This document shows positions 6,136 through 29,534 of a DNA stretch of 62,454 nucleotides, in pieces. Below the pieces are notes generated by a model, which was not told the origin of the DNA, did no database searches, and saw nothing but the letters and a program-made list of their open reading frames with translations. Position 1 is the stretch's first letter. Each line of letters starts with the position of its first letter. The position numbers were made by a program, and so were the translations under genes. The DNA comes from Bacillota bacterium (GTDB taxonomy: Bacteria > Bacillota > Limnochordia > Limnochordales > DUMU01): contig DUMU01000021.1 in the NCBI GenBank assembly GCA_012839805.1, forward strand, positions 1 through 62,454, in the 5' to 3' direction.

Positions 6136-6625
6136 AGCCCTTCAATTGGCTCAGGGGGCCGCTTCCCTGGGAGAGATCCGCGAGAGAGATGCCCAAGAGA
6201 GAGCCCTGAGGCTAGGAGAGATGGTGCACTTTTCACCATCCCGGATGGAGCGGGGCGGTGAAAGATGCACCATCTACCCTTTCGCCTAGCTTCTGGGCAG
6301 TGGCAACCGCGAACCTCAGTGTCACCGGCTTCGGCCTGCGGATGGTGGCTTTCGACTCTGCGATGGCGTACTTTTCACCTTCCCCGCCCGAGCTGGATGG
6401 TGCAAGATGCGCCAGCAACCCCGTCAGCTGGCTAGAGCTGTGCTCGGGTCGGGGCCGTTCGCTTCGCCAATGACGAAGCTGGGGATAATGAAGCATGAGC
6501 ATGAGCGGCCCGCCTGCCCGCCCTGGGCGAGCACCGTTGGTGGCTGGTGGTTGTTGCAGCTACCGTTGGTGGCCGCTGCCGGCCGGGCGGTCAGGCGAGA
6601 CCCCGACCACGAGGAGGTAGACGAG
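6136..6625. other. Gene-free region holding paired dyad repeats (see 6220-6413)
   Basis: No plausible protein gene lies here; open frames on both strands lack start signals and domains. The dominant feature is a set of four related dyads described as a separate repeat entry. Confidence 0.5.
6220..6413. repeat. Four GGTG-N7-CACC type dyads in two 34-bp-spaced pairs
   Basis: Dyad 1 is GATGGTG-CACTTTT-CACCATC at 6220-6240. Dyad 2 is GGTG-AAAGATG-CACC at 6257-6271, and the segment 6257-6274 is almost the exact inverse complement of 6220-6237. Dyad 3 is GGCG-TACTTTT-CACC at 6365-6379 and dyad 4 is GGTG-CAAGATG-CGCC at 6399-6413. The starts of dyads 1 and 2, and of dyads 3 and 4, are each exactly 34 bases apart. 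The same 34-base pairing occurs in the GGGT-N9-ACCC modules at 17754 and 21871, suggesting a related element with compensatory arm changes. A CGGCCTGCG just before the second pair (6332-6340) also matches the copy at 22052-22060. Confidence 0.6.
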
Positions 6626-8926: not shown

Positions 8927-8952
8927 CATACGGCTTACCGGCCAGCTAAAGT
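8923..8952 (+). promoter_or_regulatory. Sigma-A-type promoter of the feo operon
   Basis: TTGACA at 8923-8928 and TAAAGT at 8947-8952 are separated by 18 bases. The -35 box overlaps the stop codon of the upstream gene. Transcription would begin around 8958-8960, inside the dyad at 8956-8970. Confidence 0.6.
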
Positions 8953-8955
8953 GAT

Positions 8956-8970
8956 TGAGAAGATTTCTCA
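8956..8970. promoter_or_regulatory. Candidate operator dyad at the feo transcription start
   Basis: TGAGAA-GAT-TTCTCA is a perfect 6-bp dyad placed where the feo transcript should begin. Its position fits a metal-responsive repressor site. It is not a textbook Fur (GATAATGATTATC-like) or DtxR box, so the cognate regulator is unknown. Confidence 0.45.
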
Positions 8971-8975
8971 GTCCG

Positions 8976-13431: not shown

Positions 13432-14244
13432 ATGGATTTAGATTGGTTTGACCCAAGCCCTGAGGTGGTGATTCGCCCGGAAGTCAACTGTCGGCGCGTT
13501 TGGCAGCGAAGGTTCGGAAAAGAATACATACAGATCTCTTCTACCGTCATATTGGCCAACGAAGGCGGTCGCATCTTTGAGTTAATATGCAAAGAATTAG
13601 ATTCAATCGCCAGTCCGGTATATGACTATCGAGATGCTGGCTATGTCTACTACGAGTATGACGCGCCGAAATCCGGGCCTGTCACCGTCTTTCGTGCGCC
13701 GGAGCCTGGCCCATGGGCTGCCGCGTTGCTGGAGGAGTTGATAGCCTCCGGCGGGAGACAGTTCCTCCTGATGAATCGCACGGGATCCCTCCGAGCGACT
13801 GTGCCGGTCGGAAGCCTGGTCTTGCCCGATGAGCTGGTTCGAGAAGAGGGGACGTCCTACCACTACGCACCACCAGATGTCCGACTTACTACCAGTCGCC
13901 AGTTGAACCAGCGTATCCGGGACATCGCTTCGGGCCTTGGAATTCCCCTCATAGACGGTAAGCACTGGACCACAGACGCCATCTACCGCGAGACATTTGC
14001 GAAGGTTGAACGCCTAGCCGGGGCCGGTGTGGTCTCTGTCGACATGGAGTTATCTGCATTGGCCGGCGTGGCGTACTTTCGGAAATGTGAACTATCTGCT
14101 GTTCTCGTGGTCAGCGACGTGGTAGCTCGAGATCATAGCTGGAACGGGATGACCACGCCTGAGTTTGGTTTGGGAGTACAGCGGGCGGCACAGATCGCGT
14201 CGAGGGTCTTCAGGTTTGAGGAGTCACAAAGCGTGAGCCATTAA
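13432..14244 (+). CDS. Nucleoside phosphorylase (PNP/UDP family)
   Basis: A 270-residue protein. The family signature is ERLAGAGVVSVDMELSALAG, where the DME Glu contacts the ribose of the nucleoside. An upstream MNRTGSLRATVPVGSLVLPD corresponds to the phosphate/nucleoside pocket with a Gly-Ser-Leu turn. These enzymes cleave purine nucleosides or uridine with phosphate; which substrate is used is not clear. ATG 13432 is preferred over the overlapping GTG 13429; GGGGGAGA lies just upstream. Codon use is less GC-biased than in its neighbours, hinting at later acquisition. Confidence 0.8.
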   Translation: MDLDWFDPSPEVVIRPEVNCRRVWQRRFGKEYIQISSTVILANEGGRIFELICKELDSIASPVYDYRDAGYVYYEYDAPKSGPVTVFRAPEPGPWAAALLEELIASGGRQFLLMNRTGSLRATVPVGSLVLPDELVREEGTSYHYAPPDVRLTTSRQLNQRIRDIASGLGIPLIDGKHWTTDAIYRETFAKVERLAGAGVVSVDMELSALAGVAYFRKCELSAVLVVSDVVARDHSWNGMTTPEFGLGVQRAAQIASRVFRFEESQSVSH

Positions 14245-14282
14245 CCCTGTCGGCCTGTTAACGCCGGGCTGGTATCCGGCTC

Positions 14283-14456
14283 GTGGAAGTGATCTGCTCC
14301 TTCGGTACCTCCAGTGGGTCTCAGCCGGCCGATGCCGCGGCAGAGGCAAGAGGGGCCCGGATCTTTCACTCGGCTCTTGGCCTGCTGGCCCATGACAGCT
14401 ACGCTGTCGACCATATCACCTTCTTGCGGGCGATGCAGGGAATTCCCGCGGCATAG
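14283..14456 (+). pseudogene. Short coding-like fragment, unidentified
   Basis: A 57-codon frame from GTG 14283 to TAG 14456 reads like real protein (FHSALGLLAHDSYAVDHITF near the end). It has no ribosome-binding site and is open upstream only to 14262. It may be the surviving tail of a decayed gene or an uncharacterised small ORF. No family was recognised. Confidence 0.3.
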
Positions 14457-14533
14457 AAGCGACTTTCGCCGAGACCTCCGTGACTCCGTGCACGGGTTTT
14501 CGACCCGGGCACAGGCCAGCGGCCCGGGGCGGC

Positions 14534-14574
14534 GAAAAAGGAAAAATCTCGGCCCTTAAGAAAAGGCCGAGATT
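14534..14574 (-). terminator. Intrinsic terminator of the BpsA gene
   Basis: A perfect 10-bp stem (AATCTCGGCC 14545-14554 with GGCCGAGATT 14565-14574, 10-base loop). Read on the minus strand it is followed by TTTTTCCTTTTT. It lies 15 bases beyond the BpsA-family gene stop. Confidence 0.85.
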
Positions 14575-14589
14575 GCTCAACGGCTTTTC

Positions 14590-15708
14590 TCAACGTTGTC
14601 GCCCTGAGTATATCAGCGCCTCCTTGTCCACGTAAAGCTCGCAAGGGATAGGTCTGTTTTCTACTCCTTTGAAACCACTCAAGGTCTCTATGCGGTACAT
14701 GGCAGACCGGTACCAGTTGAGCTTGGGTTTTACCTGTAGAAAAGGGTAGTCGTTTCGGATGCTCTTCAGTAAATAGTCCCAGTTGACATAATGGTTAAAG
14801 GAGTCGATTATATCAGTGATTACCACCTTGAATTGTCCCACTAGCAGCTGCTGGAACAGGCTCCATTTCTTCAAGGAAGCCTCTGTTCGTGTCAACCCAA
14901 AGTAACCGGCACATCCCTCACCGGAAAGACCTGTCAGTCCTCTACCTATGGTAAGCTCCAGAGCCTCCAGCGTCTCCGGCGGATCGGTATGGAAAGTGTC
15001 AAAGTAACCCATGTATTCTTCGGGCAGTTTATCTCTGAAATCATGCCTTACCGCTTTCACAGGCAGGCCGTATTCTGCCGCGGTGTTATTGATATATTCA
15101 ACCAGCCTGTCGTCGATTTCCAAAACAACGACCTCTCGCGGCATCCCCGAAAGACCGGCAGCTATGCTCACGAGGTCATCGTCCCCCAGAAGCAACAGCT
15201 TTTTGCCTTGGAGATCTCCCCTGTCCGCCATGAGGAGTATCCTGCTGACCACAGTCGGAGTTGTTACAAACCCCTGGTCGTAATCAATTATGGCCTGGGG
15301 TCGGTCGGCAGTTACTTCGTCAAATTTTTGCATTAGTTCTTGCAGTTTTGCCAGGTCGATTCCCCGTCCCTCGCAAGCCGGACAGGTGTAATCTTTTCTT
15401 GCGGTTATTCCCTGCACATTCAAAAATCCCCAGCCCTCGGGGGTGATATGTAAATCCCCTTTGTCGTCTAGCTCAACCATTCTCTTCCGTTCCAGAATTG
15501 CTATTATTTCAGCGACGACGCTGAACGGTTTCCGGGCGGCGCAGACAATACCCCAGAAGTGAGAGCTGCCGGCCAGTCCTGACAGCACCTTCTCCACATC
15601 ATGTACTGTAGTTTCGACCCCCGTGCGTTGATAAACCTCCTGTGCTATTTCCCTGAGATCGTCCACGGTTTCACCTCCAAACAAGGATTTGTTCTCATCA
15701 ATGGACAT
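14590..15708 (-). CDS. bpsA: N4-bis(aminopropyl)spermidine synthase (branched-chain polyamine synthase) family
   Basis: 372 residues. BpsA enzymes transfer aminopropyl groups from decarboxylated SAM to spermidine to make branched polyamines that stabilise nucleic acids in thermophiles. Visible features are an N-terminal winged-helix-like domain, a zinc-type CPACEGRGID, a Rossmann methyltransferase-like core (KLLLLGDDDLVSIAAGLSG with VVVLEIDDRLVEYI), and the DPPET motif in FDTFHTDPPETLEALEL. All match the BpsA (former DUF43) family. Minus-strand transcription ends at a strong terminator. Codon use is more AT-rich than the surroundings. No other polyamine gene is in the window. Confidence 0.88.
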   Translation of the reverse strand: MSIDENKSLFGGETVDDLREIAQEVYQRTGVETTVHDVEKVLSGLAGSSHFWGIVCAARKPFSVVAEIIAILERKRMVELDDKGDLHITPEGWGFLNVQGITARKDYTCPACEGRGIDLAKLQELMQKFDEVTADRPQAIIDYDQGFVTTPTVVSRILLMADRGDLQGKKLLLLGDDDLVSIAAGLSGMPREVVVLEIDDRLVEYINNTAAEYGLPVKAVRHDFRDKLPEEYMGYFDTFHTDPPETLEALELTIGRGLTGLSGEGCAGYFGLTRTEASLKKWSLFQQLLVGQFKVVITDIIDSFNHYVNWDYLLKSIRNDYPFLQVKPKLNWYRSAMYRIETLSGFKGVENRPIPCELYVDKEALIYSGRQR

Positions 15709-16303
15709 CGTTTGGAGATCCCAGGCAGTACTGTCAATGATCTAGAATAAAAGTGTGCACAAGTGTGCAGAAGCGTCGAGGGTTTAAGGGTACCCTCAAG
15801 CAGGAAAGGCCACGCAGCCTTTGGTAGCTGAACGGGCGATTACTCCGGCGCCACCAGCAAACCCAAGGATGGCCGACTACCAAGTTACCACAGATTGTGA
15901 GATTCTGCAGCAGTTGATTGTTCAGGACGGTGGAATGACGTGACTTGTAGGCAGGTGGTGGCACGGAGTGCGGTTCGGGAGCATTCTGGCGGCGGTGTGA
16001 GTTACCTGCGATCTTCGGCGGACCGGAAGAATGCTTGATGCGCGGGCATCGTTGACAGCCTCTGTACCGTCCATACTACCTCGGCCTGGATATCGAACAA
16101 ATCTTGGACCGATGCGAAGGGGCGGACCCGTCGGCTAGTCCACGCTGCCTTGGTAGACCCCAGTCTCAATGATCTCGAGCACCACCCTTTACGCGGTTCG
16201 CCATACATTCCGGCCGTATGCGCGGAGACGGGTCCGAGCTGCCGACCCTGCGGGTCCCCCCCTCGGATCTGCAGGTTAAGGCTCTGTTAGTTTCCTGGAT
16301 TCC
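15709..16303. other. Gene-poor region with transposase remnant
   Basis: About 600 bases without an intact gene. It contains an IS256-like N-terminal fragment (15869-15943), a local dyad GAGGGT-N8-ACCCTC at 15778-15797 and the repeated AAGTGTGCA at about 15751-15771. Stops are frequent in every frame. Confidence 0.45.
15869..15943 (+). pseudogene. Possible IS256-family transposase N-terminal remnant
   Basis: A 24-codon ORF, MADYQVTTDCEILQQLIVQD then GGMT and a TGA stop. It resembles the first residues of IS256-family transposases, which commonly begin M-A-x-Y-Q-V-T and continue with a leucine-rich segment. The rest of the transposase is absent, so this is an insertion scar at most. The match is short and from memory of the family. 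Confidence 0.35.
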
Positions 16304-17353
16304 TTGGCCGGAGTAATGGCGGGCTATGAGGAGGCCGTGCGGGTCACGGACGAGGCGGGCAATCTAATACGAACAGGTGATGACGGGTCGCTGCCGCTGC
16401 AGGCAGTTCAAAAGGGTGAACTGGAAGGCAGCTTGGTGGCCGGCCAGGTGCTGAAAGTGTCGCTGCCCATGGGCGAGATCGATCTCAGGGGCGTTAAAGA
16501 GGGTGGGGAAGGTGAGGAAGGTGAGCAAGGTGTAGGTGCGGTGGATGCCGCCCGGCTGCAGTACGAAGTGAGGGTGTACGGTCGGAACAAGCAAGTGGCG
16601 CAAGGGTATGCCGGGCGTGTGAAGGTGTCGCTTCGGCCATTGTCCGAGACCTCGGGAGCGTCCGGGGCGGTCGGGACGGCTGAAGAGGCTGGAGGTGGAC
16701 TGGAGCTCGTGGTGGAAGAGCCGCCCCGCCCGGCTGAACTGAAGGTCAAAGTGGTGGTACGCGGTGCGCTGCCTGCCGCCGCCCGGGTAGATCTGGAAAG
16801 CGGGTACGGGCTGGTGAAAGTGGTGGATCTCGGCGGGCCTCCTGTGGTGCGGAATGGGTATGGTCCTACCGGGCTGGGCCGCCTGGCGGGGGACTGGAGC
16901 GTGGAGGTGGACTACTCTGCCCTGCTGGTCGATGGGATAGCAGGGGATCTGGAGATGCGGGGCGACTATAGTGAAGCCAACGTCAGCCATGTAGGCGGTG
17001 ACCTCACCATCCGTTCAGACTACAAGGATATCCGGGTTGCGGACGTGCGGGGTGACGGCATCGGCGGCGATGTCAGAGCCAGCTCCTCGTATGGAGATCT
17101 GCGACTTGCGGGGCTGCGGCGGAACGTGGAGATCGAAGCCAAGTTCGCGAACGTGGATCTCGGGTTCACCGCTCCCCCGGACCACTGCTTCCGCCTGCGC
17201 AGCCGCTATGGGTCGATCGCTGATGACCTGTCGGTGACAGAGGAGCGGAGTGCCGGGAGCTGTGAGAAGTTGCGGCAAGGGGTGGCCGGCCGAGGGCAGT
17301 ACCGTGTAAGCGTCGAGACGGATGTATGGGAGGCGCCCGCCCGGAACAGGTAG
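16304..17353 (+). CDS. DUF4097-like (putative adhesin / auto-transporter-like beta-helix) protein, possibly 5'-truncated
   Basis: About 349 residues. The C-terminal half (from about residue 160) has a repeating short beta-strand pattern: VDLESGYGLVKVVDLGG, LEMRGDYSEANVSHVGG, LTIRSDYKDIRVADVRG, VRASSSYGDLRLAGLR. This is the beta-solenoid typical of DUF4097. The N-terminal third is not clearly assigned. No signal peptide or anchor is present, and the frame opens just after a stop at 16277-16279 inside a decayed region, so the native N-terminus may be lost. TTG 16304 and ATG 16316 are the available starts; neither has a good ribosome-binding site. Confidence 0.6.
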   Translation: MAGVMAGYEEAVRVTDEAGNLIRTGDDGSLPLQAVQKGELEGSLVAGQVLKVSLPMGEIDLRGVKEGGEGEEGEQGVGAVDAARLQYEVRVYGRNKQVAQGYAGRVKVSLRPLSETSGASGAVGTAEEAGGGLELVVEEPPRPAELKVKVVVRGALPAAARVDLESGYGLVKVVDLGGPPVVRNGYGPTGLGRLAGDWSVEVDYSALLVDGIAGDLEMRGDYSEANVSHVGGDLTIRSDYKDIRVADVRGDGIGGDVRASSSYGDLRLAGLRRNVEIEAKFANVDLGFTAPPDHCFRLRSRYGSIADDLSVTEERSAGSCEKLRQGVAGRGQYRVSVETDVWEAPARNR

Positions 17354-17753
17354 CAGGTGGTGCGGGAGAGGTAGTGCAGAAGCAGGTAGTGCTGAGGTAA
17401 TGCTGAGGTAATGTTGAGGTAGGCTGTAGGCCTAGGGTCACATCACAAGCCACAGGCCCGCGGCGGCAGGCCTAGGCAGTGGGCCGTGGGCGCCAGGTCG
17501 TATTCCTGGGCACAGGCCGCGGGCCCCGTAGATCCCGGGCGGCATGCGCAAAGGACCAGGCCGCATGCCACAGGCCCCGGGCGGCCTGTGCAAAGGGCTA
17601 GGCCAGAGGCCTGCAGCCCCTGCCGAGGCCTTTGGCGAATTGGCCAGGCGAAGGTGGGTACTACCGTGCTACCGCAGCGACCACTCCCCGGTCGCTGATT
17701 GGATCTACCCTGCCTGAGCCGATCCCCCAGCCTTTTGGGGTAGGTTGAGGGGT

Positions 17754-18019
17754 GGGTAACAAAACTACCCGGCCCCGGCGAAGGACTGGGTAAAATCATT
17801 ACCCACTGGCCGTCGACGAGTGTCGGCTGGCTGCCTCCCGGGGTGCGGCCGGCCCCGGCCAAGGCACTCGACCTGGGCATTTGTCCGCCCACTGGCCCGG
17901 GCGTCCAGGCCAGGGTCACGCCGGCTCGGCCTCCGCAAGGCGTGGGAACGTTCCCATCGGCGGGGCGGGTAGTTTCTTCACCCACTCTAGCACACAGAGT
18001 GGGTGAAAAAACTACCCGC
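17754..18019. repeat. Dyad module, copy A (four GGGT-N9-ACCC dyads plus palindrome)
   Basis: Dyads start at 17754, 17788, 17967 and 18001; each is GGGT, nine bases, ACCC. The first two and the last two are exactly 34 bases apart. The perfect 14-bp palindrome TGGGAACGTTCCCA at 17943-17956 starts 24 bases before the third dyad. Dyads 3 and 4 together form a 24-bp inverted repeat with one mismatch (17965-17988 against 17996-18019, 7-base loop). The nine-base centres are A/T-rich, often GAAAAAACT. Copy B at 21871 has the same elements with the same spacing. Confidence 0.8.
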
Positions 18020-18020
18020 A

Positions 18021-18176
18021 GTCTTGGTGGAGTTGGTGGGGTTGATGTGGTTGATAGAGTTGGTGCGGTTGGCATGGTTGGTGGGGTTGGCGTGGTTGGT
18101 GGAGTTGACAGGGATGCTGCGGTTGGTGTGGTCGGTGGAGTCGGCGTAGTTGCGTTGGTTGGCGTTACTGAGATAA
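18021..18176. repeat. Degenerate 9-base minisatellite (TTGGTGGNG type)
   Basis: About 16 tandem units of roughly nine bases, for example TTGGTGGAG, TTGGTGGGG and TTGGCGTGG, begin just after module A. All frames through it encode trivial repeats, so a protein origin cannot be excluded but is not supported. Confidence 0.6.
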
Positions 18177-18251
18177 TTGCAGTTCCGGGGTAAGGACACC
18201 ACGGCTTCGGGGTTCGGCAGACCAAGCTGCGACGCTGGATTCTAGGTAATT

Positions 18252-18935
18252 CTAGATAACCGTAGCTCCGGCTCTTGCCATCTCGTCGATAGCCCTGTCC
18301 CCGTCTCCTTTATTCACATTCACTGCCCGCACGGCGTCTCTTATCACGACCACTTCCAAGCCTTCTTTGAGCCCGTCCAGGACTGTGGCCTTCACGCAGT
18401 AATCGGTGGCCAGCCCGCCTACGTAGATGCGCTTTACACCCTGCTGGCGAAGCCATTCCGCAAGGGGCGGGCCAAAGGTTTCCTCCGGCGCGCTTGCCTT
18501 GTTCTTCCCGGCCACTTGGCCGGCCGATTGGTTTGTCACCTGGCTCTCTGCGGCCTGGAGCCTTGAGTCAAATCCGGAATAGGCCTCCCGGTTCGCCACA
18601 AAGCCCTTCACAAAAACTGGTCCTTCCACGAGAAGGTCCGGATGGAAGTCAGACCCATAGGTATGCTGCAGGCAGTGGGGCGGCCATATGCCACCGTTAG
18701 GCTTAAAGGAAGAGTGATCGGCCGGATGCCAGTCCTTCGTATAAACTACTGGCAATCCCCGCTCACGGAACTTTTTGATCGAGGTGTTCAGGACGGGCAC
18801 GACCTGATCGCCCTCTGGTACCGCAAGTGCTCCCCCCGGACAAAAGTCGTTCTGGACGTCGACCACGACCAGACAAGAATAGTTAGGGATATCGATTTGG
18901 TTAGGAATAGGATAAACGTTACGGGTTATCGACAT
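18252..18935 (-). CDS. pncA: Nicotinamidase / isochorismatase-family hydrolase
   Basis: 227 residues. It deamidates nicotinamide to nicotinate for NAD salvage. The catalytic triad positions are Asp in VVVDVQNDFCPGGAL, Lys in the PVFVKGFVANREAYSGF region, and the nucleophile Cys in GGLATDYCVKATVLDG. Metal ligands are in DWHPADHSSF and the following PPHC. An insertion of about 25 polar residues (SQVTNQSAGQVAGKNKASAP and following) before the LxEWLRQQGVKRIYV core is not usual for PncA. ATG 18935 has GGAGG upstream. Confidence 0.92.
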   Translation of the reverse strand: MSITRNVYPIPNQIDIPNYSCLVVVDVQNDFCPGGALAVPEGDQVVPVLNTSIKKFRERGLPVVYTKDWHPADHSSFKPNGGIWPPHCLQHTYGSDFHPDLLVEGPVFVKGFVANREAYSGFDSRLQAAESQVTNQSAGQVAGKNKASAPEETFGPPLAEWLRQQGVKRIYVGGLATDYCVKATVLDGLKEGLEVVVIRDAVRAVNVNKGDGDRAIDEMARAGATVI

Positions 18936-19001
18936 CGAACCACTACCTCCGAGAGTTTTGCTTATCCCGTGCTGCTCAAGGTATTATCTCAGACCGTCCG
19001 G

Positions 19002-19910
19002 TTACTGCGCTTGAACCGTCTCATCTCTCCAGGTAGTAAGACGAACGCCGAGGTCGTCTATCATCCGATAGGTTTCCGGGTCGAGGAAAGCTTGCAAGTC
19101 CCAGACCCGTTGTTGCCAGCCGGGGAAGATGGCCCGGAGTTCAGGCGTATCCGCGGCGGGGTGGATGATTACCTGGCTCAAACCGGCGGGGAGTCCCGCA
19201 AAGATTTGCCGTATTGCTTCCTTCTTGGCAGCGTAACTGGGAGCGGCCGGCAACTGCACGAGGTAGTCGAGTTTCACCCCAGGATAGGCCTCGCTGCAGC
19301 GGGCGAGCGCCTCCACCGGATAGCCGGCCCGGGCGTACTCCTCTCGAACGAGCGGCGAGAGGCGCAGAAGCATGGGGGTCAGGCGATGCTCGGCCGCCAC
19401 GGCCAGGAAGGCTTCCAGGAACGCGGGGGTAGCGAAGACAGTGCCCATGTGCGTGTCCAGGTGGGTGGGGGAGAGGCCCCAGGCCCTAGCCCGTTCGACC
19501 TGGGCCGTCAGCTCTAGGCGAACCTCTGCCGCCGAGGCGTGGGTCGCTACCGATTTTACGTCCCGCCAAAGGAAGCCGTCGGGGTCAACCAGCCCAGAAA
19601 CGGTTGCCGACGGGGAAACTGGCCTCCACCGATAGGTAGCCCACTCGCTGGTCAGGGTCGCATGGATGCCGATGTCGGCCGTGCCGGTGCCGGCCCTGGC
19701 GCTGTCGGCCGCTGTTTTTTCATCTGTCAGCCAGCGGACAAAGTCGTACGCCCACGGACATGGGACCATGACGCTACCAGAACGCACCGGCGAAGACGTA
19801 ATCAGTTCCTTGACAGCCAGGTTGACCGCATGGCACATCCCGATGTCGTCACAATGGACGATTACCCGGCGCTCTCCCCTTGAGGACTCCGATGAGGACT
19901 CCGAGGTCAT
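19002..19910 (-). CDS. ChbG/HpnK-family (YdjC-like) carbohydrate deacetylase
   Basis: 302 residues. The YdjC fold hydrolyses N-acetyl groups from chito-oligosaccharides or related sugars, or acts on hopanoid precursors. The metal-binding Asp-Asp is in VIVHCDDIGMCHAVN, and the His pair in GIHATLTSEW and THLDTHMGTVFA. A later VIIHPAADTPEL completes the active site. GGGGGAG lies just upstream of ATG 19910. The Ser/Glu-rich first 12 residues come from a short direct repeat (GAGGACTCCGA). No sugar-uptake genes are nearby, so the substrate is open. Confidence 0.88.
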   Translation of the reverse strand: MTSESSSESSRGERRVIVHCDDIGMCHAVNLAVKELITSSPVRSGSVMVPCPWAYDFVRWLTDEKTAADSARAGTGTADIGIHATLTSEWATYRWRPVSPSATVSGLVDPDGFLWRDVKSVATHASAAEVRLELTAQVERARAWGLSPTHLDTHMGTVFATPAFLEAFLAVAAEHRLTPMLLRLSPLVREEYARAGYPVEALARCSEAYPGVKLDYLVQLPAAPSYAAKKEAIRQIFAGLPAGLSQVIIHPAADTPELRAIFPGWQQRVWDLQAFLDPETYRMIDDLGVRLTTWRDETVQAQ

Positions 19911-19945
19911 GGGACACTCCCCCGTTTCTTGGGATTTGCGTCTTT

Positions 19946-20001
19946 CTCACCTGCTCGCCTGCTCACCTGCTTACCTGCTCACCTGTTCGCCTGCTCACCT
20001 G
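19946..20001. repeat. 8-base tandem repeat (CTCACCTG)7
   Basis: Seven units of CTCACCTG with a few substitutions (CTCGCCTG, CTTACCTG, TTCGCCTG) fill exactly 56 bases upstream of the deacetylase gene. The unit is not a multiple of three, so it is not a coding repeat. Confidence 0.8.
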
Positions 20002-20086
20002 CTGATGTCTCGTTCTCCCCGCGAAACGCATTTCCTGCGCTTGGGGTTGCAGGCAGTTCACCAGTAGTGCCGGCAAAGCGAGGCGA

Positions 20087-20692
20087 TCACTGGCTCCTGC
20101 CGGGAGACAACGCCGCGAAAGCTTGCCGGGCGGCAGCCAGGGTATACTCGATATCCGCTTCGGTGTGGGGCGCCTGCACGAACCAGGCCTCGTACTTGGA
20201 TGGCGGCAGGAGCACGCCCCGGCGGACCAACTCCTGGAAGAAGAGGCCGTAGAGGTGGCTGTCGGCGACTTCGGTGTCGGCGAAGTTCCGGATCGGCCGT
20301 TCACTGAAGAAGAGGGTGAAGGCGCCCCCCACCCGGTTTAGCTGAACTGGAATCCCGGCTCGGCGTGCGGCGTCGAGCAGCCCTTCTTCCAGCCGGGCTG
20401 CAAATTGGTCGAGGCGGGGGTAGGGGTTTTCCTCCCGCAGGGTATCCAGGCAAGCGACGGCGGCGGCGATGCGGGGATGGCCGTGGCCGAGGATGAGGGC
20501 GCCGAAGGCGGCCAGGTAGTCGATGTAGCGGTTGCCGTCCACGTCATAGAGGTAACCGCCCCGGCCGTAGTCCATGAAAAGGGGGGCGCTCCCGCCCACC
20601 GGTGTGTAGGAGTGGCTCGGACTGTTGACACCACCCACAACGGCGTGGCTCGCGCGGGCAAAGAGTGCGGCGGAGTGCGGGAAGGAACGCCT
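20087..20692 (-). pseudogene. hemL: Internally deleted glutamate-1-semialdehyde 2,1-aminomutase (hemL-like)
   Basis: Both ends of a GSA aminomutase can be read in one frame: the N-terminus RSFPHSAALFARASHAVVGG-VNSP then the GGYLYDVDGNRYIDYLAAFG segment, and the C-terminus TLREENPYPRLDQFAARLEE through SKYEAWFVQAPHTEADIEYT. Between GHGHPRIAAAVA and CLDTLREEN the middle of the enzyme, roughly 230 residues with the PLP-binding Lys and cofactor pocket, is missing without a frameshift. The product cannot be catalytic. There is no clear start codon at the conserved N-terminus. The 'gene' is best seen as a deletion relic; the organism must have another hemL or no tetrapyrrole need. Confidence 0.85.
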
Positions 20693-20789
20693 AAAGGTGG
20701 GGTTAGCAGGGTGGGGGCCGGGGCGGGGTTGGGGTTGAGGTGATGGGGGTTCGTAGACGCCGCAGAACTCAAGCCAATCCGTCCTGTTT

Positions 20790-21698
20790 CTAGTACCTGG
20801 CTCGCTTGCCGGTTGCCCGGTAGATGTAGCGCTCGCTGACGTCCACGATGTAGTTCAGGACAGGATCGTCTAGGTACACCGTGCGCAGGGGCAACTGCGG
20901 CGCTTCCTCGATCTTGGCCAGCATTCCCGTAAACGTCAAATCTTCCGGGTGGATTGTGATCAAAGTCACGCCGTGGTCCTGGCTGATAGCCTTCTTAATG
21001 TAGTCTCGGGCCCTCGTTTGGGCGACCTGCTCGGAATCTGGGAAATGACCGGTCACCCGGTAGTGTTGCGGGCCGTTGAACTCAAAGGCTACGCTCCCCC
21101 CTTCGCAGGCAGCATACCACCGGTCGTACTCCAGGTTTTCACCGGTTGTCGGGTTGCACAGAAATCCGGGGCGAGCGTTGTCGTCGTATTCGGATAAATC
21201 GACGAGCAAGGTCAGCCACTCTTTCATCAGCGCTTCGCCGACGTGGGGTGCACGGTCGAGGCGCTTTTGCACTTGCTCGAGTTCACGCCAGCGTTCTGCC
21301 AGGGCAGGGTAGCACAGGGTGAACCTCGTGCTGTGTGCACCAGCCGGCTCGACACTCAACCACCCCTGGCCCACCAGCTCCCGAACATGCTTGCAGAGAG
21401 TGTGGCGTTCGATACCCAGTTCACGGGCAAGTTTCCGCTGGCTGACGGTGATAGTCTTGACTTGCGCTGGCACTTGCGCTGGCGTGCGAGTCCGCCCCTG
21501 ACCTGGCGTGACCACTTGAGCCCGTTCATGGCAGCGCGAGAGAAGTGCCAGGTAAATCACCTTGGCGATCGGAGTGATCCCGGAACTGACCAGGTCGACC
21601 GGTGTGGGGATCTCGAACCATCGGCAGCTGAGCCCCCTGTATTTCCGGGCACTCTGGTCTGTGGCCGGTGGCTGCGGTTTTTTGGCCGAAACGTCCAT
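20790..21698 (-). CDS. Winged-helix / PD-(D/E)xK-like nuclease fusion protein
   Basis: 302 residues. An N-terminal domain (about 20-125) resembles a replication-initiator-like or GntR-like winged helix: ITPIAKVIYLALLSR, then VSQRKLARELGIERHTLCKH and VRELVGQGWLSVEP. The C-terminal part (about 175-270) looks like a restriction-endonuclease fold: VAFEFNGPQHYRVTG supplies the Glu/Gly-Pro-Gln-His-Tyr element seen in Vsr-like and mismatch-type nucleases, and RARDYIKKAISQDHGVTLIT fits the helix and strand that follow it. No restriction-methylation partner is present. GGGGG precedes ATG 21698. Dyad module B begins about 170 bases upstream. Confidence 0.65.
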   Translation of the reverse strand: MDVSAKKPQPPATDQSARKYRGLSCRWFEIPTPVDLVSSGITPIAKVIYLALLSRCHERAQVVTPGQGRTRTPAQVPAQVKTITVSQRKLARELGIERHTLCKHVRELVGQGWLSVEPAGAHSTRFTLCYPALAERWRELEQVQKRLDRAPHVGEALMKEWLTLLVDLSEYDDNARPGFLCNPTTGENLEYDRWYAACEGGSVAFEFNGPQHYRVTGHFPDSEQVAQTRARDYIKKAISQDHGVTLITIHPEDLTFTGMLAKIEEAPQLPLRTVYLDDPVLNYIVDVSERYIYRATGKRARY

Positions 21699-21870
21699 GC
21701 TAACCCCCTAGCTGGGTTTAGCGGATGAGTTGTGGATCAAGCCTCAGTAACAAGAGCCGTATATGAGGCGCGAACCAGCTCACTAAGACCGTAACTCCTG
21801 CTGCAGAGTATGCCCACAATATGTATTATATGGCATCACTTGGCAACTATGTCCAGAGGGTGGGTGAGGC

Positions 21871-22139
21871 GGGTACAAAAACTACCCGACCCCGGCGGAC
21901 GAGTGGGTGAAAAAACTACCCACCTACCACCGATGACAGTTGGGCTTGAGGTCTGCCGGAGAGCATCGCAACCCGTGCAAGCACTGTAGCTGGGCGTTAG
22001 CATGCGGCCTCGCCTCGCCCGCCCGGGCCACGGTTCACCCAGACCCCGGCCCGGCCTGCGTGGGAACGTTCCCAAGGCCTGGGTGGGTAACTTTTCGACC
22101 CAGCCAACGCCGCCGGGTGGGTGAAAAAAGCACCTACCC
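21871..22139. repeat. Dyad module, copy B (four GGGT-N9-ACCC dyads plus palindrome)
   Basis: Dyads start at 21871, 21905, 22085 and 22119 (the last ends ACCT, one mismatch). The pairs are again 34 bases apart, and the palindrome TGGGAACGTTCCCA at 22061-22074 starts 24 bases before the third dyad. First dyad to palindrome is 190 bases against 189 in copy A. The region between pairs is diverged but keeps a GCACT...CTGGGC block at the matching place (21981-21995; copy A 17864-17878). The copies are in the same orientation, 4.1 kb apart. Confidence 0.8.
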
Positions 22140-22538
22140 CCGCACCGCCTGCCTGCCTGCCTGTGGGTATGCCTACCAGTAAGCCTCTCGCCACTTCCTG
22201 GCCGGTGACCAGCTTCGCGGTTTGACGCATGGCTATGACGCCTGGATTCATCGCAAGTTCAATGTCTATATGACTCGTGGCAGCGAGCCCTGGCAGAACC
22301 AGTCCTCGTTCAGCAAACCGCGACCCGCCGCCGATCCCGCTCGTGAACAGGGCTCTGTAACTGCGCCGTCTGCTCAGTGTCGGCGGCGTACTCTACCGTA
22401 TCAACGTCCGGAGTTGTCCCGAACCAGTCGCTGCCTCCTCCGCCTGATCCCGACTACCATTGGAAAACAGCGTCTTTGACGTACCCCTTCAACCTGCGTC
22501 AACATTAGCGCGAGCTTCGGCTCAACCGGTTGGTCTTC

Positions 22539-22724
22539 ATGACTGTCGGACCTGAGCCCTGGTGGTCCGAGCGCGCCCGCCTGCTCGACGCGGAGGCAGA
22601 ACGGCTCGGCATCACGTTCGCCGACAGTGTCTTGCGGGAACGGTGGGTCACCGGTGAACTTTGGGAGGCCAGCACTCTCAAACGCTGGGCCGCACTGGCA
22701 GACGGTAGCTGTCCCCAGTCATAG
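22539..22724 (+). CDS. Short unidentified ORF (61 aa)
   Basis: ATG 22539 opens a frame reading MTVGPEPWWSERARLLDAEA and then ERLGITFADSVLRERWVTGE, which has protein-like composition and amphipathic helices. There is no clear ribosome-binding site, and no family was recognised. It may be the tail of a decayed gene. Confidence 0.3.
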   Translation: MTVGPEPWWSERARLLDAEAERLGITFADSVLRERWVTGELWEASTLKRWAALADGSCPQS

Positions 22725-22882
22725 GGCAGCCTCTCCACCGGCATCGCCTGAATAGCGTTCCAGGTATCGTGGGCGGCCGTCGCCAGCAGGAACAAGAGTT
22801 TAGCGCCACACTGAGTCAAAATGACCAGTCTTCGAGTGGCGGCGACGGATGAGTTGGAACACTTCCGCCGCCGCCCTGAGTC

Positions 22883-24208
22883 TTAACTCTTTAGATACGT
22901 GCACTCCAGCCGCAGACATTCGTCCTCAGCTACGTACCGCTCCGAGAAGGCGAACTTGTATGCCCCTGCGTCGATCACGCCATTGCCCCGTCTAATACGG
23001 ATGTTCTTTGCCCCGGCGGGGATGGCGAGGTACAAGCCGGATTTTGCGTTGGCGCCCAGGTAGTTCTGCAACTTACCCACGACCAGATTGGGGTCCTCAA
23101 TTGTCGTCGTGACATACTTATCTCTCGACAGCGCTACGGAACCGATAATGTGTTCGGGGTACACCTTCACCATCTTGCGGTAGATCACTTGCACCTTACT
23201 CGGGTCGCGCGGGTTGGGGACCAGCTCGAACTCTATTTTGTGCCCGTCATTGTCGAATTCAGCCAGATGCTCTAGGTTTGCATCATGAATACCAAACGTC
23301 CAGTTTTCTCCTCGCGGGATGACGCCACCGTTTGCCTCAAGAATGGCATTCATACGCTGCAGTTCCCGATCGTCGACGCGGGAGGTACCGCCGAAGTAGT
23401 TGAGGGTGGTGCCATCGCTCAACGGGATGGCTATCAGGTAGTGCCGTATCTCGCCGTCCCGCGCCGGCGTCATATTTGCAGCCAGAATCCGAAGCGACTC
23501 CGCCAGATCGGTGCAGTCCTTGCACGCAGCCAGGTGGCCTTCCACTTTTTCCCGATCCTCAGGCATTATCCGCCCCTTGGCATACTGGAACAGGAAGGCG
23601 TAGGCGTCTTTGCAGTTCACGACAAATCCCCCCTCGACCACGTATCGGGACAAGTGTCTGCGGAGCTTTTGCAGCCCGTAATGGCACTTAGACTTGACAG
23701 AGCCCACCGGTTGGTTGGTTAGGTGCGCCACCTGGTGGACACTGAAGTCCCTGACGAAACGGTAGTACACCACGCTGCGCTGGGCCTCCGGAAGCTTGCT
23801 GATAGCTTCCATGATGCGCCGCGTTAGCTCGTTGGCCAGCGCTACCTCCTCGGCGGATGGTACATGATCCATTGCCGTCTCTATGAAGTGGACGATGCTC
23901 TCGTCGCCCGTGCACAGGTTCACCTCCCGTATGGCGGCCGGACTGCCCAGGTAACGAAACGCGACGTTGCGGGCGATGGTGCGCAGCCATTGCCGCTGCC
24001 GGCCGGTTTCCTGGTAACCGTCGTAGGCCTTGAACGCCCGGATGAACGTCTCCTGGACGATGTCTTCCGCGGCCTCCTGGCTACCGACGATTTTCTTGAC
24101 ATACCGGAGGAGCCACCCCTGGTTGTTGACGACGACCTGCTCGAATGGGGAATCGATCTCCAGGACGCACCACCCCCGCGGCGGCATCTGCATCGCCTGA
24201 GGCGCCAT
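22883..24208 (-). CDS. ECF-type RNA polymerase sigma factor fused to a zinc-finger and a C-terminal sensor-like region
   Basis: About 441 residues from ATG 24208 (the frame is open to GTG 24406). Region 2 is visible as LLRYVKKIVGSQEAAEDIVQ, then ETFIRAFKAYDGYQ, and region 4 as ISKLPEAQRSVVYYRFVRDF with the HTH VHQVAHLTNQPVGSVKSKCH. After the sigma domains comes a zf-HC2-like motif (KVEGHLAACKDCTDLAESL), normally found in a separate anti-sigma factor. A further 200 residues of unknown fold follow, with beta-rich strands and no membrane helix. The protein may be self-regulated through its own zinc finger. No separate anti-sigma gene is adjacent. Confidence 0.8.
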   Translation of the reverse strand: MAPQAMQMPPRGWCVLEIDSPFEQVVVNNQGWLLRYVKKIVGSQEAAEDIVQETFIRAFKAYDGYQETGRQRQWLRTIARNVAFRYLGSPAAIREVNLCTGDESIVHFIETAMDHVPSAEEVALANELTRRIMEAISKLPEAQRSVVYYRFVRDFSVHQVAHLTNQPVGSVKSKCHYGLQKLRRHLSRYVVEGGFVVNCKDAYAFLFQYAKGRIMPEDREKVEGHLAACKDCTDLAESLRILAANMTPARDGEIRHYLIAIPLSDGTTLNYFGGTSRVDDRELQRMNAILEANGGVIPRGENWTFGIHDANLEHLAEFDNDGHKIEFELVPNPRDPSKVQVIYRKMVKVYPEHIIGSVALSRDKYVTTTIEDPNLVVGKLQNYLGANAKSGLYLAIPAGAKNIRIRRGNGVIDAGAYKFAFSERYVAEDECLRLECTYLKS

Positions 24209-24493
24209 CCAACACAAGGAATCACGTTGACCGGGCGATGGTTCAAACGGGAGAAGAATCTCCACCTCCGTCAGCAGCACGGAAATTCCGCCGCTGGCCC
24301 GTCCGCCCTTCTGCGGTTCGGGATCAGGGGCGAGCGTCCCTGTTGACTGACCGTGAGGGAGATGGTACGGTCTGTGGTAGTTAGATAGTTTGCTAACAAT
24401 CTTCACGACGGGTTGGCCGGGAGCGCCGGTTGGACGATTAGTAGGGTTAGTAGGGATAGCGGGAGCGGGAGCTCAAGGGGGAGAGGAGCAAGA

Positions 24494-24781
24494 TTGGGGC
24501 TGGACCTGGTTTTCAAGGCTTTGTCAGATCCGACCCGGCGTCAGATTCTGCGTATGCTCTCGCAAGGCGACCTGTCTGCCGGGGAGATCGCGTCCGCTTT
24601 CGCCATGGCCAAGCCCAGCGTCAGCCACCACCTCAATGTCCTCAAGCAGGCTGGACTGGTGCAGGACGAAAGGCGGGGGCAGCAGATCATCTACTCTCTC
24701 GATACCACGGTGTTCCAGGATGTACTCGCGTGGATTTTCGAAGTGGCCCGGCGTTCCGATCAGCCCCGCCGGCCTGGCTAG
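24494..24781 (+). CDS. ArsR/SdpR-family transcriptional repressor
   Basis: A 95-residue winged-helix protein from TTG 24494, which has GAGAGGAG upstream. The core is LDLVFKALSDPTRRQILRML, LSAGEIASAFAMAKPSVSHH and LNVLKQAGLVQDERRGQQII, closest to SdpR-like autorepressors that lack metal-binding cysteines. The SdpI-type gene follows 38 bases downstream, reproducing the sdpRI operon arrangement of immunity genes. The frame is open further upstream, but the leading 27 codons are low-complexity. Confidence 0.85.
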   Translation: MGLDLVFKALSDPTRRQILRMLSQGDLSAGEIASAFAMAKPSVSHHLNVLKQAGLVQDERRGQQIIYSLDTTVFQDVLAWIFEVARRSDQPRRPG

Positions 24782-24819
24782 TTAGTTAGAACCAGCGAAA
24801 GCAATGCGACAAAGGGGCG

Positions 24820-25530
24820 ATGGATATGGGTGAATCGTCACAGACACCGCAAGACGGGTATCGTCTGGACTGGCCGCAGGTGCGCCGCGATTGGCCTATC
24901 TGGCTTCTGCTTCTTGGGTCTTTCCTTGCCGGGCTGTGGGCGTACCCGCACCTTCCTGAACGGGTTCCCATCCATTGGGACTTGCAGGGACGGCCGAACG
25001 GGTGGGGTTCACCGTTTTGGGCGGCCTTCGGCGTTCCGCTGCTCAATCTCGGCGTCTACATTCTGATGCTGATCTCCCCCTTGATCGACCCCAAACGGGC
25101 CAACTACGCCCGGTTCACCGGCTTTTATCGCGGCCTGCGGTGGCTCATCGTTGCTTTTATGACCGCCGTTTACGGCGCGGCTTGGGCAGCCGGGCTGGGG
25201 TATTCGGTAGACATAGCGCTGATCGTGCCGCTCGCGGTGGGGCTGCTCTGGGTCTATATCGGTAACTCGTTGGGGCGGGTGCGGTTCAACTATTTCGTCG
25301 GGATTCGCACCCCCTGGACTCTGGCCGACGAGACGGTGTGGCAGCGGACGCACCGCCTCGGGGGCAGGTTGTTTGTGGTCACCGGGCTGCTGACCGTCGT
25401 AGCATTGCCCTTCTCTCGGGTTGCCTCTTTCTGGGTGCTGACGGGTGGTTCACTGGCAACCGTGATCGGCACTCTCGTGTATTCGGCGGCGCTGTACCTG
25501 CGGCGGTCGCGGCCCGAGGGCGGCGAGTGA
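24820..25530 (+). CDS. SdpI-family / DUF1648 membrane protein
   Basis: 236 residues with about six membrane helices. The DUF1648 signature is LPERVPIHWDLQGRPNGWGS after the first helix, and the SdpI signature is FNYFVGIRTPWTLADETVWQ then RTHRLGGRLF. In Bacillus, SdpI is the immunity protein against the SdpC killing factor and sequesters SdpR at the membrane. Here it is cotranscribed with an SdpR-like gene, but no SdpC-like toxin gene is seen in the window. ATG 24826 is an alternative start. Confidence 0.88.
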   Translation: MDMGESSQTPQDGYRLDWPQVRRDWPIWLLLLGSFLAGLWAYPHLPERVPIHWDLQGRPNGWGSPFWAAFGVPLLNLGVYILMLISPLIDPKRANYARFTGFYRGLRWLIVAFMTAVYGAAWAAGLGYSVDIALIVPLAVGLLWVYIGNSLGRVRFNYFVGIRTPWTLADETVWQRTHRLGGRLFVVTGLLTVVALPFSRVASFWVLTGGSLATVIGTLVYSAALYLRRSRPEGGE

Positions 25531-25741
25531 GATAGGGGGAGGGGGCGGCACGGGGCAAGCCGCATGGGGCCGCATGGCAGGCGTGATGGCGTGAGAGATG
25601 GCGAACGAGTTGGGGAGCGGCTCGGCGAGCGGGACGGCGAGCCGGATGGCCAGCGATGCGGGTGTGACGGCAGGCGGGATGGCAGGCGGGTTGGCGAGTG
25701 TGAGCTAGGACCGGGCGTCAAACAAGGAAGGGGCAGATCGT
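25531..25741. other. Intergenic region with degenerate GGCGAGC/GGATGGC repeats
   Basis: The 25560-25710 interval is built of short imperfect direct repeats (GGATGGC, GGCGAGC, GATGGCG) and has no supported gene. It ends in the leader of the hydrolase gene, with GGAAGGGG before its ATG. Confidence 0.4.
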
Positions 25742-27184
25742 ATGTGGACGAAGCATGGGTACCGGTGGCAGCTGATCAAGCGCTGTGCAGCCGTCATGGC
25801 CGCGGTCACCGCGCCCATTATCATCATCATCATGATTACGGCCGGTGGTACACAAGCGGCTTACGCAGAGGAGGCCGCTCACGCAGCGCTTTCCCCAACT
25901 GTAGCCGGGGCGGCAGCACGGGCCGCCGAGCTTTTTGCCGCGGGGAAGTACCAGGAGCTTTGGGAGATGGGGGCTCCGGTCCTGCAAGCGGCGATCACCG
26001 TCGCCCAGCTGCAGGCCATCGGCGACCGGCTGGGGGCGGTGCAAGCGGTGGGCCGGCCGCAGGCAGTTCCGGGATATCCCCAAACCGCCATCGTGGTCTT
26101 GACCTATCCGGCGTTCAAGGTTGATCTGACTTTGACCGTTGACGAAGAGGGTAAGCTGATTGGCCTGTTTGTGAGGCCGCACGAGGAGCAGCTGCAGCCC
26201 GGCTGCTCGGCGGCTTCGTCCTCTGCTGATGGTGCTGATGCAGAGGAGAGCTGGGAGGCCCCACCTTACGTCGTCGCCGGAACGTTTGCTGAACGCACGA
26301 CCACCTTCGGGACACCCGGGTGGGAGCTCGAAGGGACGTTTACCTATCCGACTGACCGGGCGGAGTATCCGGCCGTCGTGTTGGTGCATGGCTCCGGACC
26401 CAACGATCGGGATGAGACGCTCGGTCCCAACCGCATCTTCCGGGATCTGGCCTGGGGGTTGGCGAGCCGCGGGATCGCCGTCTTCCGCTACGACAAGCGG
26501 ACGTACGTGCATGGCGGGAAGATGACTCCCGCCGATGTCACGCCGTATAGCGAAGTGATCGACGACGCCCGGGCGGCCATCGCCTGGGTCAAACGGCAAC
26601 CGGGCGTGAGCCGCGTTTACCTGGTTGGCCATAGCTTGGGCGCCCAGCTCGCGCCGGCCATCGCTGAAGGGCTGCCCCCTGGCACGCTGGCGGGGTTGGT
26701 GCTGCTTGCCGTTCCCGCCCGGCCTCTCGAGGAACTGGTCGTCTACCAGGTGCAATACCTCGCCCAGATCGACGGTACGGTGACGGACGACGAGAAGCAG
26801 GCGATTGCCCAGTTGGAGATGGCGGTGCAGGCGCTCACAGCCGGGCAACTTCCGGCCGATGCTGACTTTTTGGGCGCACCAGTTCACTATTGGGTGAAGT
26901 TGCGTGAACTGTCACCCGTGCCGATCGCCCGCCGGCTGGAGCTTCCCCTGCTACTCGTTCAGGGCGGGCGTGACTACCAGGTTCCGCCCGCAGAGTTCGA
27001 AGAGTGGAAGAAGGAACTGGGTGGGCGAGGGAACGTCGATTTCGAGCTGTTTCCCGACCTCAATCATCTGCTCATACCTGGCGCTGGACCTTCCACTCCG
27101 CAGGAGTATGAGAAGCCCGGTCATGTTGCGGAAGAGGTGATCGAAGCGATCGCCCGTTTCGCCGGGTGGGCGAATAACGGGTAG
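25742..27184 (+). CDS. Secreted alpha/beta hydrolase with N-terminal DUF3887 domain
   Basis: 480 residues. A signal peptide or anchor (CAAVMAAVTAPIIIIIMITA, residues about 15-35) is followed by a DUF3887-like domain (about 50-145) and an alpha/beta hydrolase domain (about 175-480). Hydrolase motifs are VVLVHGSGPNDRDE (oxyanion region), GHSLGAQLAPAIAEG (nucleophile Ser), GGRDYQVPPAEF (Asp) and DLNHLLIPG (His). Similar DUF3887-hydrolase fusions occur as cell-envelope esterases in Clostridia. The substrate is unknown. It is convergent with groEL; a 28-bp palindrome lies between them. Confidence 0.88.
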   Translation: MWTKHGYRWQLIKRCAAVMAAVTAPIIIIIMITAGGTQAAYAEEAAHAALSPTVAGAAARAAELFAAGKYQELWEMGAPVLQAAITVAQLQAIGDRLGAVQAVGRPQAVPGYPQTAIVVLTYPAFKVDLTLTVDEEGKLIGLFVRPHEEQLQPGCSAASSSADGADAEESWEAPPYVVAGTFAERTTTFGTPGWELEGTFTYPTDRAEYPAVVLVHGSGPNDRDETLGPNRIFRDLAWGLASRGIAVFRYDKRTYVHGGKMTPADVTPYSEVIDDARAAIAWVKRQPGVSRVYLVGHSLGAQLAPAIAEGLPPGTLAGLVLLAVPARPLEELVVYQVQYLAQIDGTVTDDEKQAIAQLEMAVQALTAGQLPADADFLGAPVHYWVKLRELSPVPIARRLELPLLLVQGGRDYQVPPAEFEEWKKELGGRGNVDFELFPDLNHLLIPGAGPSTPQEYEKPGHVAEEVIEAIARFAGWANNG

Positions 27185-27216
27185 TACGGCGACCCCGGTG
27201 AAAGTTCGACATGCAA

Positions 27217-27244
27217 AGGACCGTGGGGCATGCCCCACGGTCCT
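27217..27244. terminator. Perfect 28-bp palindrome, likely bidirectional terminator
   Basis: AGGACCGTGGGGC / GCCCCACGGTCCT reads identically on both strands and lies between the convergent hydrolase and groEL stops. There is no U-run, so it may act as a transcript-end stabiliser rather than a classical terminator. Confidence 0.55.
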
Positions 27245-27325
27245 CTCAGCAGCTTCCTGACTGTCGCCTGCTCGCCCACTTCGGCTTCGGCCACCCACCA
27301 CCGAACCGGCCGGGCTACCGATCTA

Positions 27326-28960
<1,635 letters not shown>

Positions 28961-29069
28961 TCAAAAACTGTTGGATTCATGCCCGAGCAAACGCATCCGG
29001 CATGTGGGAATCCAGGATCATCCAGGCGGGTCGTTAACCTGGTAGTCCTCCCGGCCTCACGCGTTTTCC

Positions 29070-29354
29070 TTACGCGTTAATGGCCAGGATGTCACTCTCC
29101 CGCAGGACCAGATACGTTTCCCCGTCCAGCTTGAACTCCGTGCCGCTATAGCGGGCAAACAGTACCCGGTCTCCCACCTTCACTTCCAGCGGGGCACGCT
29201 GCCCGTTGTCCAGGAGCCGGCCGGGCCCGATCGCGATGACCTCTCCCTCTTGCGGCTTCTCCTTGGCCGTGTCCGGCAGCACGATACCGCCCTTGGTCTT
29301 TTCCTCCTGCTCGATGGGCTTTACGACGACTCGATCAGCTAAGGGTTTCAGCAC
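29070..29354 (-). CDS. groES: Co-chaperonin GroES (Hsp10)
   Basis: 94 residues, normal size: [20 protein letters not shown], the mobile loop [20 protein letters not shown], and [18 protein letters not shown]. It forms the lid of the GroEL folding chamber. It is the first gene of the operon, about 60 bases downstream of the CIRCE element. Confidence 0.99.
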
Positions 29355-29414
29355 TATTCGTCCCTCCCTAAGCGCGAACCGGAGAGGGGATCCCCGCTCC
29401 GGTAACCCGAGTTG

Positions 29415-29441
29415 TTAGCACTCGACGAAGGTGAGTGCTAC
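29415..29441 (-). promoter_or_regulatory. CIRCE operator (HrcA binding site)
   Basis: TTAGCACTC-N9-GAGTGCTAC is the classical CIRCE dyad with one mismatch at the last base. It sits between the -10 box and the groES start. HrcA binding here represses groESL until heat shock. No hrcA gene is in the window. Confidence 0.95.
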
Positions 29442-29450
29442 CATGGCATA

Positions 29451-29478
29451 ACTATAATCCGCCTGGATTCCCTGTCAA
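29451..29478 (-). promoter_or_regulatory. Sigma-A promoter of groESL
   Basis: On the minus strand TTGACA (29473-29478), 16 bases, TATAGT (29451-29456). The CIRCE element begins 10 bases downstream. Confidence 0.8.
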
Positions 29479-29534
29479 TAGGGGGCGGCCCAGAAATGCC
29501 CGGAAAGTTGCACGCCGCCTCACAAACCGGCCAT

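Follow-up and report, generated by a model that had tools for sequence, protein, structure and literature searches.

A winged-helix, Vsr-like nuclease gene and its dyad modules in Limnochordales: a candidate enzyme-repeat partnership

Dispersed repeats are common in bacterial genomes, and to our knowledge few of them have a known enzyme partner, REPIN-RAYT being the main case. Strain SBW25 has three RAYTs, and a different REPIN group adjoins each of them (PMC3116915). Other described systems join similar domains for other ends. The MOBC relaxases, whose members include TraX of pAD1 and MobC of CloDF13, combine an N-terminal winged helix (wHTH) with a restriction-endonuclease-type domain; they bind direct repeats 70-120 bp from nic, and TraX likewise binds repeats distant from nic (PMC12857230). 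Further comparisons are offered by the RepA-type iteron initiators and by the Vsr and EDxHD (I-Bth0305I) nucleases, the latter as set out in PMC3943268. Among the titles and abstracts listed in searches of the open PMC literature, outside which subscription journals and preprints mostly fall, none describes a system like the one reported below.

The window, by which we mean the whole analysed stretch of 62,454 nucleotides, is contig DUMU01000021.1 of a Limnochordales genome (GCA_012839805.1; G000 hereafter). An earlier note on this DNA had described a protein joining a replication-initiator-like winged helix to a Vsr-like nuclease segment, about 170 bp from a dyad cluster (module B) and pointing away from it. 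The open reading frame is real: it occupies 20790..21698 on the minus strand, starts with ATG and encodes 302 amino acids, with VAFEFNGPQHY and RARDYIKKAISQDHG both within the translation, and 172 bp lie between its start codon at 21698 and the first dyad at 21871. AlphaFold2 modelled the whole protein with a pLDDT of 85.4 and a pTM of 0.77, and the nuclease domain alone with a pLDDT of 91.6. The predicted winged-helix domain spans residues 34-128 (coded by 21315..21599, minus strand); for residues 27-132 the best VIA-align matches were 4pql and 4pt7, RepA-type initiator N-domains (Z 10.0 and 9.7), AspA centromere-binding proteins ranked high, and the Pfam matches fell under the curated cut-off (MarR_2, 2.1e-5; HTH_36, 3.5e-4). 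The predicted nuclease domain spans residues 150-272 (coded by 20883..21251, minus strand) and, modelled alone, matched Vsr best in VIA-align (1cw0, Z 9.8, rmsd 3.1, 107 residues aligned), followed at lower ranks by a second Vsr entry (1vsr, Z 8.8) and TnsA (Z 7.5). Foldseek returned no significant match for this domain, and searches of PDB sequences and NCBIfam with the protein gave nothing useful. As a prediction resting on these models, the reading of an initiator-like winged helix plus a Vsr-like nuclease is right. A defence role was considered and rejected; the best PADLOC match reached only 0.0068, and all such matches fell on the HTH part.

Conservation within the family is concentrated in the nuclease domain. 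We aligned the window protein with the proteins of 24 of 30 homologue loci (25 sequences, mostly from draft metagenome assemblies, as were the sequences compared throughout). Left out were L067, which has N in its sequence, L074, whose protein is the same as that of L073, the short frame L077, the fragment L085, and L086 and L087 from Lokiarchaeota, which have a different architecture. Sixteen columns were invariant, every one of them in the C-terminal domain (G154, L162, D192, R193, V203, F205-H212, T216, D232 and K235), giving the nuclease core the pattern VAFEFNGPQH...D..K. Columns E155, D192, E206, H212, D232 and K235 are invariant or nearly so, and E155, D192, H212 and D232 may correspond to EDxHD by our own tentative assignment. 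Pairwise identity was higher in the nuclease domain than in the wHTH in 253 of 253 pairs (mean 0.495 vs 0.273). An orthologue 86% identical in protein is present in a genome of the same genus (G001); the orthologue lies in JADBKP01, a Limnochordales MAG, which marks the window's genome as of Limnochordales type. Against the G001 orthologue, dN/dS is 0.071/0.298 overall, 0.036/0.340 (about 0.11) in the nuclease domain and 0.118/0.325 in the winged helix. The first two values indicate a gene under purifying selection, and the nuclease value together with the invariant catalytic-type residues implies a working nuclease.

The dyad pattern GGGT-N9-ACCC occurs eight times in the window against 1.88 expected, a number reached in none of 100 shuffles, and seven of the eight occurrences form two clusters of identical layout, modules A and B. 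Module B comprises dyad 1 (21871..21887), found by pattern search and kept in G001; dyad 2 (21905..21921), 34 bp after dyad 1; a central core-like motif GTAGCTGGGCGTTAGC (21986..22001, plus strand), with three mismatches to CTAGCTGGGNTTTTNC; a palindrome GTGGGAACGTTCCCA (22060..22074); dyad 3 (22085..22101), again from the pattern search; and dyad 4 (22119..22135), with one mismatch to the pattern. Module A (17754..18017) has dyads at 17754, 17788, 17967 and 18001, a core-like motif at 17869-17884 and a palindrome at 17942-17956, and a copy of it stands at the orthologous place in G001 (C20:85696). A second module type lies at 6222..6414, with TGGYGCAN3TGCRCCA-like dyads at 6222, 6256, 6364 and 6398 (0-3 mismatches). 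The nuclease gene and module B are kept together in G001, where the dyads and the palindrome are conserved and the spacers drift, and a conserved AT-rich block lies next to module B just upstream of the gene.

Several further differences from G001 surround the gene. Module B (21871-22135) seems a hybrid of two G001 modules (L093 425-690 and 2402-2665), since its left side most resembles the C20:100424 copy and its right side the one at C20:102401. This look suggests that modules have recombined and that the ABC-transporter genes present at this place in G001 were lost in the process. Also, a glutamate-semialdehyde-aminotransferase-like frame at 20087-20638 has 183 amino acids vs 467 in G001 (L092 9958-11361) and looks truncated or internally deleted. 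A short stretch at 22530-22724 resembles the end of a methyltransferase-like gene region of G001 (L021 ~18213-18653) and is likely a remnant. The G001 orthologue adjoins an apparent type III CRISPR operon (Cas10-like and RAMP proteins, judged by eye; L021, equal to C20:90000-109500, 52-9207), which the window does not have between module A and the nuclease gene.

Modules of this layout, here called type 1, are dispersed elements. Each has two dyad pairs on a 34-bp lattice, mutually inverted around a central CTAGCTGGGNTTTT-like core, and in full modules the inverted pairs are 169-275 bp apart, start to start. There are three type 1 modules in G000, and six and about 12 in two relatives, the latter number being that of G002, in which the second dyad pair fell below threshold at 3 of 12 places. 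When 41 genomes were searched for dyad pairs with 34-bp spacing, forward and reverse matches together numbered 10, 23 and 22 in the three members of the window's family vs 0, 2 and 4 in the controls, and at most five in each of the other 38. A profile built from 34 half-modules and searched in 60 genomes gave 11, 18 and 32 matches in the window's family and, across the remaining 57, three weak single matches.

Dyads of 17-21 bp are typical of dimer operators. Such operators would fit a transcription factor of nuclease fold that regulates its own gene, the dyads marking its regulon, and module B does lie just upstream of the gene beside the AT-rich block. However, the modules are intergenic and by eye follow no orientation rule, as the genes on their two sides can be convergent, tandem or divergent, and are unrelated from copy to copy; arrays of up to 22 dyads as found in other genomes (see below) are unusual for operators, and the residues and dN/dS of the nuclease domain imply a functioning enzyme; we regard this account as unlikely. 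A role as RNA was also rejected: Rfam gave no match at gathering threshold in window positions 14000-30000, and A.C fifth pairs occur at chance level. Of the 55 dyads whose fifth pair is R..Y, 12 were A.C vs 9.9 under independence by our own arithmetic, so that A.C is not avoided, hairpin pairing is not selected, and we read the dyads as protein sites. Rfam likewise matched no module in L088, L089 and L100; its sole match in these loci was a group II intron domain (RF01998, 57.7 bits) at L088 9307-9390.

The centre of the modules carries a recurrent motif. In type 1 modules it approximates CTAGCTGGGCTTTTGC, and across 22 chosen modules the core is central with a mean of 2.36 mismatches vs 5.60 after shuffling, as low a value arising in none of 200 shuffle sets, the consensus having been derived partly from modules scored among the same 22. 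A search of 41 genomes with CTAGCTGGGNTTTTNC found 11 copies in G030 vs one in the control; the core alone showed no enrichment in G000 (7 vs 6 in the control) or G020 (7 vs 8), and it is also found outside modules. Twenty core regions were examined. GCGAA...ACCAAA iterons accompanied 9 of 10 in G030, where the same type also lies beside the nuclease gene of C143, a dyad type GCGTCCCA...TGGGACGC accompanied three of four in G013, and two in G000 revealed a new dyad type; one G030 region and five others had no module by eye. No core within three mismatches was present at five TGGYGCAN3 loci (L203, L204, L207, L209 and L210), so the core is not universal, and the AGTGC arrays of G060 and G061 have none. 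In L194 and L196 (G013 and G011), CTAGCTGGGCTTTTGC occurs near DnaA-box-like TTATCCACA repeats upstream of an apparent rpmH, with no dyad modules. A porin-like gene is preceded in three genomes by a conserved element containing the words CTAGCTGG and GCTGCTAGAA and the core word (L088 5330-5365; L105 ~975-1010; L106 ~885-920).

The distance from dyad to core, commonly about 50-85 bp, is like the spacing between bound repeats and nic in MOBC, and the window protein has the same domain order, wHTH then restriction-endonuclease-type domain, as that family (PMC12857230). MOBC offers a mechanistic parallel, a wHTH plus a restriction-type nuclease whose bound repeats stand at a distance from nic. 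It is rather improbable, though, that the protein is itself a relaxase- or initiator-like nickase from integrated elements, with the module as oriT or replication origin. The RepA-like winged helix and the MOBC-like arrangement would suit such a nickase, but tblastn with the nuclease domain matched none of 72,556 plasmid records, no transfer genes were noticed near many of the module copies, whose neighbours were judged by eye, no relaxase is among the window protein's eight Pfam matches at E<=1, and Vsr fits the fold better than any relaxase among the matches listed. A family scan of the 25 members matched 67 families, 25 of them listed. The earlier note had likened the arrangement to Rep-iteron or nickase systems. 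The likeness to RepA-type initiators holds for the wHTH fold (Z 10.0); the genome-wide dispersal of the dyads makes a plasmid-style Rep-iteron origin less than the best interpretation, and here a nuclease follows the wHTH.

In G000, all three nuclease-family loci adjoin a module, each with a different dyad: GGGTRN7YACCC at the C6 locus, TGGYGCAN4TGCACCA at the C14 paralogue and TGGYGCAN3TGCRCCA at the C1 locus, a wHTH-only remnant. By rough arithmetic such adjacency at all three is unlikely by chance (on the order of 1e-7, given about 18 modules or half-modules over 2.78 Mb and treating loci as independent). The two TGGYGCA types were discovered through the core search rather than by way of the nuclease; their modules retain the 34-bp spacing, and a gap of about 115-330 bp separates them from the C14 paralogue and the C1 remnant. 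TGGYGCAN3TGCRCCA has 44 matches in G000 vs 11 in the control, and for modules of this type (2a) the only neighbour from the family is the truncated wHTH gene, beside one copy. In G002, the roughly 12 type 1 modules lie beside none of its three nuclease loci in the scans used.

Homologues elsewhere were checked for the GGGT-N9-ACCC dyads on which the earlier note had focused, and dyad pairs were found beside none but the orthologue. Many adjoin unrelated dyad arrays of their own instead. Four further dyad types were tested, all dispersed through their own genomes: TGGYGCAN3TGCRCCA, TGGGGCACCGGTGCCCCA, GTGCAAACN4TTGGCAC and GCGAA...ACCAAA. TGGGGCACCGGTGCCCCA adjoins the C18 nuclease of G002 and has 34 matches on nine contigs of that genome, commonly 34 or 68 bp apart, vs none for the reversed control and none in G000, G001 and G004. 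GTGCAAACN4TTGGCAC adjoins homologues L072 and L076, with 63+88 and 47+61 matches vs 2 and 3 in the controls and 6 and 5 in background genomes, and, with dyads mostly 42 bp apart, makes up eight arrays in G060 (10-22 dyads each) and seven in G061 (3-14 each). Tandem repeats make up 7.2% of the sequence up to 1.2 kb from homologues vs 1.2% farther off; an array lies within 1.2 kb at 12 of 24 homologue loci and none at the other 12, the far windows summing to 7/50 (8/50 was entered in the Fisher test, which is conservative). On a repeat measure, 23 of 85 segments lying up to 700 bp from the genes scored vs 14 of 244 far segments (Fisher p 7e-7), and since near and far sets contain related loci, these p-values are optimistic. 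Against a partnership of gene and repeat, repeat arrays may be a general feature of intergenic DNA that is not conserved. The tandem signals inspected in homologue loci were degenerate repeats unlike CRISPR arrays, which were rejected as an identity.

Paralogue-specific, genome-wide dyad families beside matching genes would not be expected of a free-standing Vsr/EDxHD homing endonuclease that shares with the dyads a preference for intergenic, variable regions. Homing endonucleases have a target that is disrupted by the insert. The Vsr fold, a weak match of the window protein to the PHROG 9084 homing endonuclease (E 1.9e-5) and the patchy, multicopy distribution of the family across genomes fit such an enzyme, yet we give this account little credence. 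No viral relatives were found in IMG/VR, and weak matches (E 7e-4) came from four records of SPbeta-like phages of staphylococci. As a described fold, Vsr/EDxHD (family description in PMC3943268) remains the best match; what sets the window protein apart is an initiator-like wHTH joined to its nuclease, with dispersed cognate repeats close by.

Module positions are partly kept and partly variable between genomes. A G002 module lies behind apparently the same operon as module A of G000 and G001, and several GTGCAAACN4TTGGCAC array positions are syntenic between G060 and G061. On the other hand, a G000 module on C23, between htrA-like and porin-like genes, is absent from the matching site in G001 and G002, and in G002 two pairs of module copies from unrelated loci share 87% identity across 367-405 bp. 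Such presence and absence, together with near-identical copies at unrelated loci, points to mobility. No target-site duplication was found, and at the htrA-porin site the flanks have diverged from G001 and G002 in a way that would hide one; synteny was wanting in the comparisons of an aconitase-like site and of window position 6222, and no match was found for the L089 flank. The same variable sites, and the patchiness of the family, speak against modules as chromosome-organisation sites (centromere- or domain-like) with the nuclease as a resolving or loading factor. The dispersed, regularly spaced dyads, the high AspA ranking of the wHTH, and the kept positions of module A (in G000 and G001, perhaps G002) and of several G060/G061 arrays would suit that role, which we nevertheless consider very improbable.

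Nuclease domains are conserved (identity 0.50), whereas winged helices (0.27) and dyads diverge among homologues; the simplest account is a partnership between enzyme and site, in which the variable winged helix would read variable dyads and the conserved nuclease would act at a place that varies less. We consider it probable, with real reservations, that the gene encodes a sequence-specific nuclease that reads and acts on its own dispersed dyad modules, RAYT/REPIN-like but with unrelated chemistry. The analysis establishes the folds as predictions, the dispersal of the modules, their lattices, the paralogue-specific adjacency and the purifying selection on the nuclease; that the protein binds DNA, cuts at the core and mobilises modules is what we infer. 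In this partnership the winged helix would read the dyads of a dispersed intergenic module and the Vsr-like domain would cut or nick at it, each lineage, and each paralogue inside one genome, having its own dyad. One module copy would stand beside the nuclease gene and the others would be scattered over the chromosome. In Limnochordales, the two inverted, 34-bp-spaced dyad pairs may seat enzyme dimers on either side of the core, which as the conserved part is the likely site of action, and the likely outcome would be copying or maintenance of the module, nuclease and modules behaving like RAYT and REPIN. The functional link between gene and dyads proposed in the earlier note is strengthened, though not in the form expected, as homologues carry other dyads.

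The likeness to REPIN-RAYT lies, for the Limnochordales types, in dispersed intergenic palindromic repeats in inverted pairs with one cluster beside the enzyme gene and in a separate repeat class next to each of the enzyme paralogues (PMC3116915). The systems differ in that RAYT is an HUH/Y1 tyrosine transposase and the enzyme here is a predicted wHTH-Vsr-fold nuclease, and in that the units here, dyads of 17-21 bp placed on a lattice of 34 or 42 bp, read as protein sites and not as hairpins. MOBC differs too, since here the nuclease domain has no plasmid match, the site has many dispersed copies and the window protein has no relaxase family match.

More tentatively, and with somewhat less than even confidence, we suggest an undescribed class of enzyme and repeat in several Bacillota lineages, in which wHTH-Vsr nucleases and dispersed modules specific to lineage and paralogue co-diversify, and nuclease-driven copying, with action at a conserved core and no transposase, spreads or maintains the modules. 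If true, this would be a second, chemically unrelated repeat-enzyme partnership, with several enzyme/dyad pairs per genome, and the enzymes with a possible role in moving or maintaining repeats would come to include nucleases of a DNA-repair fold. Specificity could be compared directly among paralogues through their paired dyad types, and direct tests of how repeat and enzyme remain matched would become possible.
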